A stretch of DNA of 64,000 bases from Haloplanus sp. XH21. Lineage in GTDB: Archaea; Halobacteriota; Halobacteria; Halobacteriales; Haloferacaceae. Position numbers and translations under genes: made by a program. Location: the NCBI RefSeq assembly GCF_023276355.1, contig NZ_JALLPL010000001.1, positions 2,356,001-2,420,000 on the forward strand. Reading direction: 5' to 3'. Positions 3,687-59,289 of this stretch are shown one piece after another (the stretch's first letter is position 1; the number at the start of each line of letters is the position of its first letter). Under the pieces are notes generated by a model. The model had not been told where the DNA came from, did not search any database, and worked only from the letters and a program-made list of their open reading frames with translations.

Positions 3687-3755
3687 AACGGGTGGCGAGC
3701 GGAGTCAGCCAGGCGAGGCATCTCGACGGTCGAACGACGGAGTAGCTGGTGCTCG

Positions 3756-3833
3756 TTGTGAGTCATCGCACCCCTGTCCGTCTGCCGCCTCGATCAGGTG
3801 TGCACACAGGTCCAAACGCGACTATAGCGACAG
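3756..3833. repeat. Left arm of 79-bp imperfect inverted repeat flanking a DUF4396 gene
   Basis: The outer 16 bases, TTGTGAGTCATCGCAC, are identical to the complement of the right arm at 4664-4742. The inner part shares GTGTGCACAC and TCCAAACG followed by ACTATAG and GACAG. Roughly three quarters of the positions match with one 1-nt gap (hand alignment). Confidence 0.75.
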
Positions 3834-4663: not shown

Positions 4664-4742
4664 CTGTCCCTATAGTAGCGTTTGGAACGGTGTGCACACG
4701 GATCGCACGCTGTCTGGCGAACCGGTGTGCGATGACTCACAA
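4664..4742. repeat. Right arm of 79-bp imperfect inverted repeat
   Basis: This is the reverse complement partner of 3756-3833, ending in GTGCGATGACTCACAA. The next open frame starts 13 bp beyond it (GTG at 4755), so the cassette may have displaced that gene's original 5' end. Confidence 0.75.
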
Positions 4743-4754
4743 GGGCTACAATAG

Positions 4755-36164: not shown

Positions 36165-36209
36165 GCGTGTAATTTAGCGGTGAAACGGTGAAAACGATTT
36201 CGGAGGGTT

Positions 36210-36287
36210 ATACTGTCGGCTGTAACTGTTCCGAGATATTCGCATCTTGGATGGGGAATCTCGTGATCAACTTATAGCCGACAGTAT
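36210..36287. repeat. 78-bp palindromic element, copy A
   Basis: The outer inverted repeat ATACTGTCGGCT / AGCCGACAGTAT is perfect over 12 bp. An inner stem uses CGAGAT / ATCTCG. The core TGTAACTGTT is shared with copies at 48622 and 59166. The right end touches the S19e stop codon (TAA, 36287-36289 on the plus coordinate). It lies in the S19e-PDCD5 gap, so in transcript terms it directly follows S19e. Confidence 0.7.
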
Positions 36288-36742
36288 TAGGCGTACTTCT
36301 CGAGTTCCGGCCGATCGAGTTCGTCGAGGACATCCGCGGCGACCTCGTCGAGGAGACTGCGACCCTCGGGAGTGGCGACGCGACCCTCGCCCTGGGCGAC
36401 CGAGATCAGATCCTCGTCTTCGAGCTGCTGGAGGATCGTTCGGATGATGTTCTTGCTGCCGGGTTCGGCGTGCGAGGGCGCGACGCGATAGCGCGTCGAG
36501 CCCTGTTTGCTGTCGCCGTACGCCGTCGAGAGGCGGTCGACACCCACGGGGCCGTCGACGGCGACTTTCCGGAGCAGGCTCGCCGCGCGAACCGCCCAGA
36601 AGTCCTCCTGCTGGGGCGGGAGTTCCTTGCTCGAACTGGTCTTGGTGTAGTTCGCCCAGTCGGGCTCCTCGATGCGATCGTCGAGCCGGTCGGCGAGCGC
36701 GTCGATGAGCGCGTCGGCCGGCACGTCGTAGAGGGTTACCAT
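36287..36742 (-). CDS. rps19e: Small ribosomal subunit protein S19e
   Basis: This 151-residue protein is the archaeal/eukaryal 30S protein S19e. It begins TLYDVPADALIDALADRL and has DDRIEEPDWANYTKTS, FWAVRAASLLRKVAVDGPVGVDRLS and the C-terminal NIIRTILQQLEDEDLIS winged-helix part. The ATG at 36742 is preceded at about 28 nt by GTTTAAAC, giving a leaderless transcript. It heads the operon S19e-PDCD5-PP-loop-yqeC. The stop codon overlaps a palindromic repeat element by one base. Confidence 0.95.
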   Translation of the reverse strand: MVTLYDVPADALIDALADRLDDRIEEPDWANYTKTSSSKELPPQQEDFWAVRAASLLRKVAVDGPVGVDRLSTAYGDSKQGSTRYRVAPSHAEPGSKNIIRTILQQLEDEDLISVAQGEGRVATPEGRSLLDEVAADVLDELDRPELEKYA

Positions 36743-36766
36743 TGGCTCACGGTTCCCGCGGACGGC

Positions 36767-36774
36767 GTTTAAAC
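36767..36774 (-). promoter_or_regulatory. TATA-like box of rps19e
   Basis: GTTTAAAC is centred about 28 nt upstream of the ATG at 36742 on the minus strand, the expected spacing for a leaderless ribosomal-protein promoter. Confidence 0.55.
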
Positions 36775-36802
36775 CCATCGTATTGGGTTCGGCCGGGACC
36801 GA

Positions 36803-43732: not shown

Positions 43733-43743
43733 GCGCCGCTCAT

Positions 43744-43817
43744 ACGGAGTATTGTACTGTGTTCCAGTGGGTCGCCAAGACGGTCCGGCGTCCCACCAGG
43801 CATGGCTTATACCCCGT
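43744..43817. repeat. 74-bp palindromic element, copy B
   Basis: Outer inverted repeat ACGGAGTAT / ATACCCCGT (8 of 9 pairs). The inner stem uses GTGGGtCGCC / GGCGtCCCAC. TTGTACTG replaces the TGTAACTG core of other copies. It fills the convergent gap between lysS (stop 12 nt before) and the cupin gene (stop 2 nt after). Confidence 0.75.
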
Positions 43818-43818
43818 C

Positions 43819-44157
43819 TCAGTCCTGCCAGTCCGGATCGGTCCGTGGCGGGCTGAACACGTCGACCCCCTCGAAGGGTTCGTCGCCGCGATTTTCCACG
43901 GCGTGGGGTTCCTCGCCCGGGATGACGTAGGCATCGCCCGCCGACACGACGCGCTCCTCGCCACCGATCAGAAACACCGCTTCGCCGCGAGTGGCGAAGC
44001 CGGCCTGTTCGTGTGAATGACTGTGTTCGGGCACCGTCGCGCCCGCGTCGATCGTATACCCCTGGACGCTGATCCGGTCCCCTGCGACCAGCTGCGAGAG
44101 GTGGACGTCCGGCACGGCCTCGACGGTCGCGGGGTCGTCGGTCGAACTGATCTCCAT
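43819..44157 (-). CDS. Small cupin-domain protein
   Basis: This 112-residue single-cupin protein has the two metal motifs in order: VPEHSHSHEQAGFATRGEAV (H-x-H..E-G) and later PGEEPHAVENRGDE (P-x4-H). A bound divalent metal is therefore likely. Roles range from sensing to small dioxygenase chemistry; not determinable here. The ATG at 44157 (MEISSTD) is chosen over 44184. It converges with lysS across copy B of the palindromic element. Confidence 0.85.
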   Translation of the reverse strand: MEISSTDDPATVEAVPDVHLSQLVAGDRISVQGYTIDAGATVPEHSHSHEQAGFATRGEAVFLIGGEERVVSAGDAYVIPGEEPHAVENRGDEPFEGVDVFSPPRTDPDWQD

Positions 44158-44199
44158 ATCTCTCCCCGCGACCCGGGGCGACATAAATATCGGTCCCGT

Positions 44200-46911: not shown

Positions 46912-48057
46912 ATGACAGACCAAATTGGTGCCCCCGGAACGACGCTCTCACGTCGGCAGTTCGTGAAGGCGACTGGCGCGGCGGGCACGGTCGGACTCGC
47001 TGGCTGTGTCGCTCCGAGAGCACAGGAGGATTCCCAGATGGCGGCGACGGCGGCCCAGCAGACCGCCAGCAGTCTCCCGCTGTCGGGGAAGCCACAGATC
47101 GTCGACGTTCCCGAGCAGGGGAATCAGGTGACGCTCCGGGCAGTCACCTCCTCGCTTCCGGTCCACCCGGGCGAGTCGATGGGCGGCCCCGTCGAACTGC
47201 CGCGGGTCTGGGCGTGGCAGGCCGACGACCGCCAGCCGAGCGTCCCCGGCCCCATCATCCGCACGACGGAGGGCGAGGACATCGAGGTGACCCTCGACAA
47301 CACGAACGCCGACATGCCCCACACCGTCCACTTCCACGGCGTTCGCAAGACGTGGGAGAACGACGGCGTGCCGACCACGACGGGCATCACGGTGATGCCC
47401 GGCGAGGAACACACCTACGAAATCCCCGCGAACGTCCCGGGGACCCACCTCTACCACTGCCACTACCAGACCCACCGGCACATCGACATGGGGATGTACG
47501 GCATCTTCCGTGTCGACCCCGAAGGGTACAAGCCCGCGGATCAGGAGCTGTTCATGACGGTGAAAGACTGGGACTCCCGGCTCAACCGGCAGATGGCGGG
47601 CGAGGACGTGAGCTACAGTCCGCGGAACCGCCAGCCCGATGTCTTCACCATCAACGGCCGGGCGGCACCCCGCACGCTCCACCCCGAAGACGGGTCGCCG
47701 GTGCTCGTCTCACAGGGCGACACCGTTCGCATTCACTTCGCCAACAACGGCTACATGAACCACCCCATCCACACGCACAACCATCGCTTCCGGGTGGTCG
47801 AGAAGGACGGCTCGCGGATTCCGGACGTGGCGCAGTACGAGGAGGACATCCTCGACCTGGCGCCCGCCGAGCGCAAGACGATCGAGTTCGAGGCCGACGC
47901 CGACCCCGGCATCTACCTCATGCACTGCCACAAGGTGAGCCACGCGATGAACGGGAACTCCTACCCCGGCGGGATGGTCGGCGGCATCGTCTACGAGTCG
48001 GTGATGGATTCGGACATCTTCGCGCAGTTGATGGAGTACGCGGGCTACGAGGGGTAG
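46912..48057 (+). CDS. Two-domain multicopper oxidase, Tat-exported
   Basis: This 381-residue protein has a Tat signal (SRRQFVKATGAAGTVGLAGC, lipobox-like Cys32) and two cupredoxin domains. Domain 1 has MPHTVHFHG (H137, H140, H142) and HCHYQTHRHIDM (H182, C183, H184, H188, M193). Domain 2 has HPIHTHNH (H284, H287, H289) and HCHKVSHAM (H338, C339, H340, H344). A full type 1 copper set seems present in both domains, as in type A two-domain MCOs, rather than the three-domain laccase. It probably oxidises small molecules or metals outside the membrane. Confidence 0.85.
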   Translation: MTDQIGAPGTTLSRRQFVKATGAAGTVGLAGCVAPRAQEDSQMAATAAQQTASSLPLSGKPQIVDVPEQGNQVTLRAVTSSLPVHPGESMGGPVELPRVWAWQADDRQPSVPGPIIRTTEGEDIEVTLDNTNADMPHTVHFHGVRKTWENDGVPTTTGITVMPGEEHTYEIPANVPGTHLYHCHYQTHRHIDMGMYGIFRVDPEGYKPADQELFMTVKDWDSRLNRQMAGEDVSYSPRNRQPDVFTINGRAAPRTLHPEDGSPVLVSQGDTVRIHFANNGYMNHPIHTHNHRFRVVEKDGSRIPDVAQYEEDILDLAPAERKTIEFEADADPGIYLMHCHKVSHAMNGNSYPGGMVGGIVYESVMDSDIFAQLMEYAGYEG

Positions 48058-48095
48058 CCGTCGGGTTCATCACGGAGGACGCCCCACCGGCAGGC

Positions 48096-48620
48096 ATGGA
48101 GCGGACGCCAACGGGCACCCCAGTCGGCGTGGACGACCCCTACGCCCACGCCGGCCGGTGTGACCATCTCACGTCCGACGGCCGGTGTCGATACGCCCTG
48201 GAGCGCGACGGCGACGACCCCGCGTTCGCGGCCGAACGCCGCGCCGAGGACTACGACTGCGTCGCCGCCGACGGCGACTGGCGCGACTGCCCACAGTATC
48301 GCTCGACGACCGACGGTCGTGAATGTCGCCGGTGCGGCCTCGAAGAGGTGCGGATGGCCCACGACGACACCCGGCCGCTGCTGGAGGAGCATCACCTGTC
48401 GTATGGATCCGCGGAGACGACGGACGGGGAGACGACCCACGAGATAACGGTCGCGCTGTGTCGGTGGTGTCACGCGAAAGTCCACGCCGGCCGGGCCCGA
48501 ATCGACGACGACGCGACGCCCGACACGGCGGCATTGGAAGCCCGCGAGGCGCGCCGGAGCAAGGAACAGGCGGAGTTGGGGTTTCAGACGGCCGCGGAGC
48601 GCGACGGGCGCGCGGAGTGA
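48096..48620 (+). CDS. HNH-nuclease-like zinc protein
   Basis: This 174-residue protein resembles a haloarchaeal family of HNH-type zinc proteins. Cysteines appear as CDHLTSDGRC and CRRCGLEE, then EEHHLSYG and CRWCHAKVH, which together look like an HNH nuclease core with zinc ligands. Specific function is unknown; DNA processing is possible. The ATG at 48096 gives MERTPTGTP; the long upstream open frame is an overlap artefact of the copper oxidase gene. Repeat copy C starts 2 nt after the stop. Confidence 0.7.
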   Translation: MERTPTGTPVGVDDPYAHAGRCDHLTSDGRCRYALERDGDDPAFAAERRAEDYDCVAADGDWRDCPQYRSTTDGRECRRCGLEEVRMAHDDTRPLLEEHHLSYGSAETTDGETTHEITVALCRWCHAKVHAGRARIDDDATPDTAALEAREARRSKEQAELGFQTAAERDGRAE

Positions 48621-48621
48621 T

Positions 48622-48699
48622 ACGGAGTATTGTAACTGTTTGCCGGTGATTCGCCTGACCTTCCCGGCGAACCGCCGGGACTGACCGACGATACTCCGT
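48622..48699. repeat. 78-bp palindromic element, copy C
   Basis: The outer inverted repeat ACGGAGTAT / ATACTCCGT is perfect over 9 bp. Inner stem: CCGGTGATTCGCC / GGCGAACCGCCGG (11 of 13 pairs). The TGTAACTGTT core is present. It starts 2 nt after the HNH-like gene's stop codon. Confidence 0.8.
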
Positions 48700-48749
48700 C
48701 CGAGACGCTTCCGATTCGCTTTTAGGCGCTACCGGACTACGACGGCGTA

Positions 48750-58264: not shown

Positions 58265-58350
58265 CGGCGGGCGTTGGCGTGGGGGTACCGTAAGGGTTCG
58301 TACTCGCGGTGGCAGGAAGGGTTTTCCGACGCCCGGACGCAGGGACGCGT

Positions 58351-59163
58351 ATGTCCCCGCTCGACGAACGGACGACGGCCCACCTTCGGGCCGTCGTCGT
58401 CGCCCTAGTGGTGTCCGCCGTCGGCCTCGGCGTCGGCCTCGCGCTGGTGTACGTCCTCCTGCGACTCCTCGCTACGGTCGGCGTCGACCTCTCGCCGGCC
58501 CGGTTTCTCGTCGTCTCGCTCGTGGCGATGCAAGGCCTCGCCTTCGGTGGCGTCGCCCTCGGCTATCTCACTGTCCACGGCTGGGCCCTCGATGACCTCG
58601 GCGTTCGCGTGCCGAATCTGCGCGACCTCCTCGTCATCGTCGCTGGCTACGCGGCGGCCATCGTGGCCGCCATCAGCGGAGCGGTCGTCATCACCATCAC
58701 GAGCGTCCCCGCGGGCGAGAATCAGGTCTCACAGATCATCGGCGCCGACGCGAGCGTCCTGTTGTGGCTGATTCCCGCCTCGTTTCTCCTCATCGGCCCC
58801 GGTGAGGAACTGCTCTTTCGCGGCATCGTCCAGAGTCGACTCCGGGAGTCGTTCGACGCCATCCCGGGCGTAGTGCTGGCCAGCGCCATCTTCGCCGCCA
58901 TTCACTACATCGCGCTGACGGGCGGCGCGGGCGGGCGCCTCGTCACCGTGACGGTGCTCTTTTTCCCCGCACTCGTGTTCGGTGCCGTCTACGAACTGAC
59001 CGACAACCTCGTCGTGCCCGCGCTGGTCCACGGCGCGTACAACGCGACGCTGTTCGCGATCACCTACCTCGCGATCCAACTGAGCGAGTCCGGGGCCTTC
59101 CCCGACGAGTCGGCGACGACAAGCCACCTCCTCGTCGAGGGTCTGAGCGCCGTCCCGGTCTGA
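58351..59163 (+). CDS. CPBP-family intramembrane metalloprotease, second copy
   Basis: This 270-residue protein has eight hydrophobic helices and the CPBP motifs: GEELLFRGIVQ, FAAIHYIALTGG, and VHGAYNATLFAI. It is similar in layout to the protein at 27462-28403 (e.g. both have an ALTG after motif 2 and a VHG-YNA motif 3). The ATG at 58351 is used; the frame extends to 58309. Target unknown. Repeat copy D follows the stop. Confidence 0.88.
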   Translation: MSPLDERTTAHLRAVVVALVVSAVGLGVGLALVYVLLRLLATVGVDLSPARFLVVSLVAMQGLAFGGVALGYLTVHGWALDDLGVRVPNLRDLLVIVAGYAAAIVAAISGAVVITITSVPAGENQVSQIIGADASVLLWLIPASFLLIGPGEELLFRGIVQSRLRESFDAIPGVVLASAIFAAIHYIALTGGAGGRLVTVTVLFFPALVFGAVYELTDNLVVPALVHGAYNATLFAITYLAIQLSESGAFPDESATTSHLLVEGLSAVPV

Positions 59164-59165
59164 TC

Positions 59166-59241
59166 CGGATTATTGTAACTGTTTACCGGTGGGTCGCTGG
59201 GGCGGTCCAGCGACCCACCGGTACTGGCTGACAATAAACCG
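59166..59241. repeat. 76-bp palindromic element, copy D
   Basis: The outer inverted repeat CGGATTATTGT / ACAATAAACCG pairs 10 of 11. The inner stem is a perfect 15-bp hairpin, CCGGTGGGTCGCTGG / CCAGCGACCCACCGG, with a 6-nt loop GGCGGT. The TGTAACTGTT core lies between. It starts 2 nt after the stop codon of the CPBP gene. Confidence 0.85.
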
Positions 59242-59289
59242 TATGAGGGGAACGGAACCCTTACCGCCGCGCCCCGAAAAGGCGAGCGT

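Follow-up and report, generated by a model that had tools for sequence, protein, structure and literature searches.

Insertion sequences of the IS1031 group of the IS5 family carry terminal inverted repeats and insert at TNA with a duplication of 3 bp. Among short bacterial elements, Correia/NEMIS, ERIC and RUP have been described as mostly A+T-rich, and RUP inserts at TA and shares its ends with IS630-Spn1 (PMC2229807). The elements SMR-A and SMR-B of Haloquadratum walsbyi have been described without a target duplication, SMR-A preferring the palindromes of IS605-type elements (PMC3119063).

Here we analyze a family of 80-bp gene-less palindromes which very probably are nonautonomous mobile DNA elements of the MITE type and have the stop codon as their favored target. 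As far as we have found, this family was previously undescribed, and a description of stop-codon-targeted MITEs in archaea was not found in the open-access literature.

Copies in the window

The window, a stretch of 64,000 nucleotides of the chromosome of Haloplanus sp. XH21, carries four copies of the element at the positions given in an earlier note, and all four are recovered by R1, a covariance model based on 32 family members. When the window was scanned without filters they reached 102.6 bits (59161-59246), 78.8 bits (48618-48703), 57.8 bits (43740-43821) and 54.0 bits (36208-36289); the next-best place, a subfamily D relative at 4671, scored 18 bits. Compared with dinucleotide shuffles, three of the four copies fold much better, with z scores of -7.5, -5.6 and -6.7, and the decayed copy at 43740 has a z score of -1.9. 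The motif TGTAACTGTT occurs three times with at most one mismatch, against 0.28 occurrences expected, and in the copy at 43740 its place is taken by TGTACTGT.

The length of 74-78 bp assigned to the copies in the earlier note needs a small correction, the element proper measuring 76-80 bp with a direct repeat of 3 bp added on each side. The outer inverted repeat and the inner stem-loop, which had been read as two palindromes, are in fact one continuous palindrome in which base i pairs with base 81-i. That the stem sequences vary is correct, and the copy at 36208 even belongs to a different subfamily (TACTGTCGGCTG) from the one at 59161 (TACGGATTATTG). The placement on stop codons and the duplicated triplet had not been recognized.

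The highest-scoring copy is a subfamily A element of 80 bp (59164-59243, plus strand) with an inner stem that is perfect over 15 bp or more. It lies between two TGA triplets (59161-59163 and 59244-59246, plus strand), of which the left one terminates the upstream gene (ORF 58309-59163); the congeners have a single stop here. A second subfamily A element (TACGGAGTATTG...CGATACTCCGTC, 48621-48700, plus strand) follows a TGA at 48618-48620 (plus strand), the stop of ORF 47214-48620, which is rejected by the coding score; its right triplet (48701-48703, plus strand) has decayed to CGA. The decayed third copy, also of subfamily A, spans 43743-43818 (plus strand) and has a short loss in the right arm. 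Its duplicated triplet reads TCA at 43740-43742 (TGA on the minus strand) and at 43819-43821 forms the TGA stop of the minus-strand ORF 43819-44184. Similarly the subfamily B element (TACTGTCGGCTG...TAGCCGACAGTA, 36211-36286, plus strand) is flanked by TTA at 36208-36210 (TAA on the minus strand) and by the TAA stop of the minus-strand ORF 36287-36778 at 36287-36289. The window further contains two subfamily D relatives, one at 4673-4751 (plus strand, TAGTAGCGTTTGGAAC...CAAGGGCTACAA) of equal length and with the core boxes, its ends and duplication being less clear, and a truncated one at 3754-3825 (minus strand).

Copy number and distribution

The earlier note had expected many copies genome-wide and had proposed a scan with a covariance model. 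This expectation was confirmed, as R1 finds 66 distinct places in 684 kb of the chromosome, 62 of them above 30 bits, and a single copy used as BLAST query against its own genome gave 62 match rows at about 40 distinct places. The density on the chromosome is about one copy per 11 kb, and extrapolating from the 684 kb we estimate about 230 copies on the 2.53-Mb chromosome. In 180 kb sampled from the smaller contigs C2 and C3 (L104-L112) no copies of subfamilies A-C were detected. Most DDE_Tnp_1 transposases of this genome are located on C2, where the sample held no subfamily A-C copies.

Other genomes were surveyed with a second model, R2, which lacks the flanking-triplet columns present in R1. 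At an E value of 1e-5 it detected the family in 127 of 293 Halobacteriales genomes; these cover 41 of the 78 sampled genera, so that the family is common enough for a study in cultured strains. At most 15 candidates were scored per genome, and the counts are therefore lower bounds. The family is carried by all 11 congeners, and the named carriers include Natrarchaeobius, Salinadaptatus, Natrialba, Natronococcus, Halopiger and Natronorubrum. The element was also found on plasmids, namely in Haloplanus sp. GDY1 (one plasmid), Natronomonas gomsonensis and Halomicrobium mukohataei. Viral contigs and phage records contained no subfamily A copies. A search with a Natrialbaceae pattern yielded 101 stretches. 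Several genomes, for example G132, have runs of equally scoring copies, which suggests recent spread.

Target-site duplication and empty sites

Read together with their flanks the copies have the form TNA + TACGG...CCGTA + identical TNA. The element itself has the ends TA...TA, and its terminal inverted repeats start with TA[C/G/A][G/T]G, the end sequences being TA[CGA][GT]G + GTAACTGT / GTAAGTCA. In 39 diverse sequences 91% of the cells in the 14-bp outer arms are paired. Among the 45 copies bounded left and right by TNA the middle base is identical in 42 and complementary in none, a result matched by none of 20,000 permutations. Because the middle base is never complementary, the triplets constitute a direct repeat and not an extended inverted repeat. 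With R2 identical flanking triplets were found at 24 of 28 usable loci in other genomes and in 97 of 126 copies from Natrialbaceae, whose loci were fetched with a pattern fixing T.A on one side only. A remote relative (L050, genome G048) has ACT on both sides, which suggests that a 3-bp duplication other than TNA can also arise.

Both genes adjoining 59161-59246 are conserved in the 11 congeners, and from its N-terminus we take the downstream gene to be tRNA-guanine transglycosylase-like. In 10 of the 11 congeners the element is absent and one stop codon is found at its place (in G009, for instance, the site reads CCCGTCTGAGCCGG). In G003 (L062, G003:C7:210750-211350) this stop codon is occupied by a diverged and decayed element of a different subfamily, which could be either an independent second hit on the codon or an old shared insertion. 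More ortholog sites with a single stop, sometimes TAG or TAA, were found for L328:10673, L328:14755, L059, L058 and L327. For the other three window copies synteny was not conserved in the congeners near 59 kb. Because the orthologs have a single stop, the elements are located at true gene ends, independently of our gene calls.

From the identical TNA triplets and the empty sites in the congeners we infer that the copies are mobile and that their insertion duplicated 3 bp of the target. Members of the subfamilies are also inserted into one another, as the subfamily D element within a subfamily B element at L093:15067. Of the interpretations considered in the earlier note the MITE-like one is thus favored by the terminal inverted repeats, the 3-bp TNA duplication, the empty sites, the nested insertions and the high copy number.

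Subfamily D (TAGTAGC[AG]TTTGGAAC...) shares the 80-bp architecture and the core boxes of the other subfamilies. Besides the two relatives in the window we found it at L101:8546-8625, L103:18762-18841 and L093:15068-15147, and also on the second contig (L107, C2). It seems to duplicate TA rather than TNA, and the copy at L099:14819 is flanked by TGA left and right. Two elements of 137 bp (L241:5428-5564 and L307:4415-4551) have similar ends and a second, unrelated palindromic middle (CGAGCCTCGGTCGAGGAGCG); perhaps they are one small element within another. From L296:231 onward one element end is found in tandem repeats (TACGTTTTACTGTAGCTGTC, TACGGTTTACTGTAGCTGTC), which suggests an aberrant end duplication.

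Insertion at stop codons

Genes on the 684 kb were called with our own hexamer model, giving 686 genes and 86-90% coding sequence. The duplicated triplet coincides exactly with an in-frame stop (TGA or TAA) in 46 of 62 copies and in 37 of the 42 copies with intact duplication; counting ORF 47214-48620 at the window copy 48618 the numbers rise to 47 and 38. Since the background of noncoding TNA sites comprises 446 stops and 2290 others (16% stops), the excess at stops is highly significant (p 6e-25). Between convergent genes 16 of 19 copies are exactly on stops compared with 31% expected. TAG terminates 208 of the 686 genes and is found at none of the 47 targets, but this is a consistency check only because TAG is not TNA. 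Exact stops were also obtained in other genera, at 41 of 55 loci and, in a second set, at 20 of 30. In Natrialbaceae 44 of 97 intact copies are exact (45%), compared with 4% of random TNA.

Duplication of the triplet leaves the host gene with its stop codon. Moreover, the element ends with ...TA, and its last A together with the duplicated TG(A) gives ATG, so that stop/start overlaps in operons survive an insertion. This is the case for 7 of the 46 insertions, which split a 4-base stop/start overlap and whose downstream gene now starts at the recreated ATG. Such overlaps exist at 48 of 426 unoccupied stops; operons are thus neither avoided nor clearly preferred. Because there are insertions inside operons, the target is not simply the 3′ end of the transcript. 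Relative to the gene both orientations occur (26:21).

We propose that an enzyme acting in trans would cut TNA sites, in most cases TGA, with a stagger of 3 bp, that the element would be pasted into the cut in either orientation, and that gap repair would then duplicate the triplet. The stop codon itself would be the preferred target, the gene keeping its stop and the downstream ATG being remade.

The same pattern could in principle be generated by a mobile element without any preference for stops, which inserts at TNA anywhere, when selection purges all insertions but those which spare genes and promoters. Insertions in coding sequence have plainly been removed, and a stop codon is the least harmful place as an insertion there restores stop and start. 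In addition, a position-weight model of the flanks which also absorbs the coding composition arrives at 70-77% at stops, and a large part of the stop bias may be explained by sequence context alone. However, in the convergent regions, where an insertion endangers neither promoter nor start, 16 of 19 copies are exact even though 356 of 513 TNA are not stops, and the 322 other TNA within 30 nt downstream of stops are almost unused. The base before TGA is C in 74% of the targets compared with 44%, yet the share at stops predicted from the flank motif preference within stops is only 24-36%. We therefore regard an element without stop preference as unlikely, though with a real chance of being correct. 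Irrespective of the mode of recognition gene ends are hit, and the bias toward stop codons probably reflects a choice of target and not selection alone.

Going beyond the preferred reading, the machinery of an order-wide element might recognize a stop codon as such, by way of the translation or transcription-translation apparatus or of a gene-end signature, and might attend to the shape of the element more than to its end sequence. Operating without a resident transposon partner, it would achieve a safe-harbor integration which is invisible to the host genes. We consider this idea speculative and rather doubtful.

Conservation of the palindrome

A comparison of the stems with shuffled sequence and a search for compensatory changes had been proposed in the earlier note, and both speak in favor of the stem. 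In the 39 diverse sequences base i and base 81-i are paired in 89% of the cells compared with 64% after shuffling, and compensatory changes are present in 26 of 29 pairs. The covariation amounts to 0.627 compared with 0.197 for shuffled sequences and at most 0.148 when slid. The terminal TA/TA pairs are the only ones that hardly vary. The stems differ in sequence between lineages with complementarity being kept, and the outer 12 bp differ widely, a divergence that is unusual for one transposase. A box at about 16-19 is usually mismatched, reading ACTGT at the left end and AGTCA at the right end (other strand). This box is not strictly needed in mismatched form, as L124 is symmetric with two left boxes. 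The palindrome is probably kept as a substrate of transposition; the covariation could also be explained by matching ends or by hairpin-templated correction.

Stable hairpins immediately after stop codons together with compensatory changes would also be expected from a structured RNA at gene 3′ ends (a terminator, a stabilizer or an RNase site) which is under selection and is repeated only incidentally. But read in gene sense G-U pairs do not significantly outnumber A-C mismatches (44 vs 35, p 0.37), and selection acting on the RNA strand is consequently not apparent. Such an RNA is also at variance with the nearly equal orientations, with the duplicated triplet, with the absence from orthologous stops (the 59161 copy is lacking in 10 of 11 congeners) and with stop/start overlaps in operons being split at about the background rate. 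No Rfam family scored above its gathering threshold in the window. A structured 3′ RNA, which the earlier note had considered, is therefore very improbable as the cause of this family.

Search for the mobilizing enzyme

An autonomous element with matching ends was not found in the genome itself, in six other carriers or in about 0.8 Mb of Natrialbaceae DNA densely populated with copies, and the latter also contained no long pairs of terminal inverted repeats with matching ends. Solo ends in G040, G056 and G000 all turned out to be decayed copies.

The transposase families searched were Pfam DDE_Tnp_1 (in seven genomes), DDE_3 and Y1. The genome under study has seven DDE_Tnp_1 loci, mostly on the second contig, and at the sole locus whose ends are clear the duplication measures 8 bp and the ends are unrelated; in the six further genomes the ends were likewise different. 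The IS4/IS5-type elements examined have duplications of 7-10 bp and other ends. G040 has no DDE_Tnp_1 match yet carries about 20 copies. DDE_3/IS630 was not detected in the genome under study. Y1_Tnp (PF01797) had no match in the carriers G057 (82 match rows), G011 (40) and G004 (14), and its presence does not track the elements. An IS608-like guide would require the duplicated N to correlate with internal bases, and nothing convincing of this kind was found.

That the elements are REP/REPIN-like and are transposed in folded single-stranded form by a Y1 (IS200/RAYT-type) enzyme would fit palindromes with a mostly mismatched box, variable stems in a constant architecture and compensatory changes, which are described for REPs too (PMC2817692), but this is the least credible of the explanations in view of the duplicated target triplet, the lack of a GTAG-type head and the copy-rich genomes without Y1 transposase. 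We rather assume that the MITE-type elements described here are moved by a DDE-type transposase.

Comparison with known elements

Stop codons as main target would be a new kind of target choice for a transposon and would surprise specialists. With the duplicated TGA remaking the stop and the terminal A remaking the next ATG, insertions would be silent, operons included. The family would account for hairpins after genes throughout the haloarchaea without terminators, bears on the annotation of gene starts and 3′ ends, and raises the question of an enzyme which reads the stop codon in DNA.

Among elements described in the literature, the SMRs of Haloquadratum walsbyi and the bacterial Correia/ERIC/RUP class come closest. 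With the SMRs the family has in common that these elements are haloarchaeal, transposase-free and 80-110 bp long, possess prominent inverted repeats, occur in tens of copies and have a strong target preference (PMC3119063). Judged by their description, the family differs from SMRs in the 3-bp TNA duplication and in the use of stop codons (PMC3119063). With REP/REPIN sequences and their RAYTs it shares the high copy number of extragenic palindromes and the covarying stems (PMC2817692), the differences being those named above. Like Correia/NEMIS, ERIC and RUP the elements are shorter than 200 bp and nonautonomous, have terminal inverted repeats with 5′-TA-3′ termini, produce a duplication and give hairpin-forming transcripts (PMC2229807). 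Unlike these, the family is G+C-balanced, uses a TNA triplet and prefers stops, and a partner insertion sequence was not found.

An insertion sequence of the IS1031 type with matching ends was likewise not found. It is nevertheless this group of the IS5 family which the elements resemble in combining a 3-bp TNA duplication with terminal inverted repeats, and we regard this resemblance as a possible lead.
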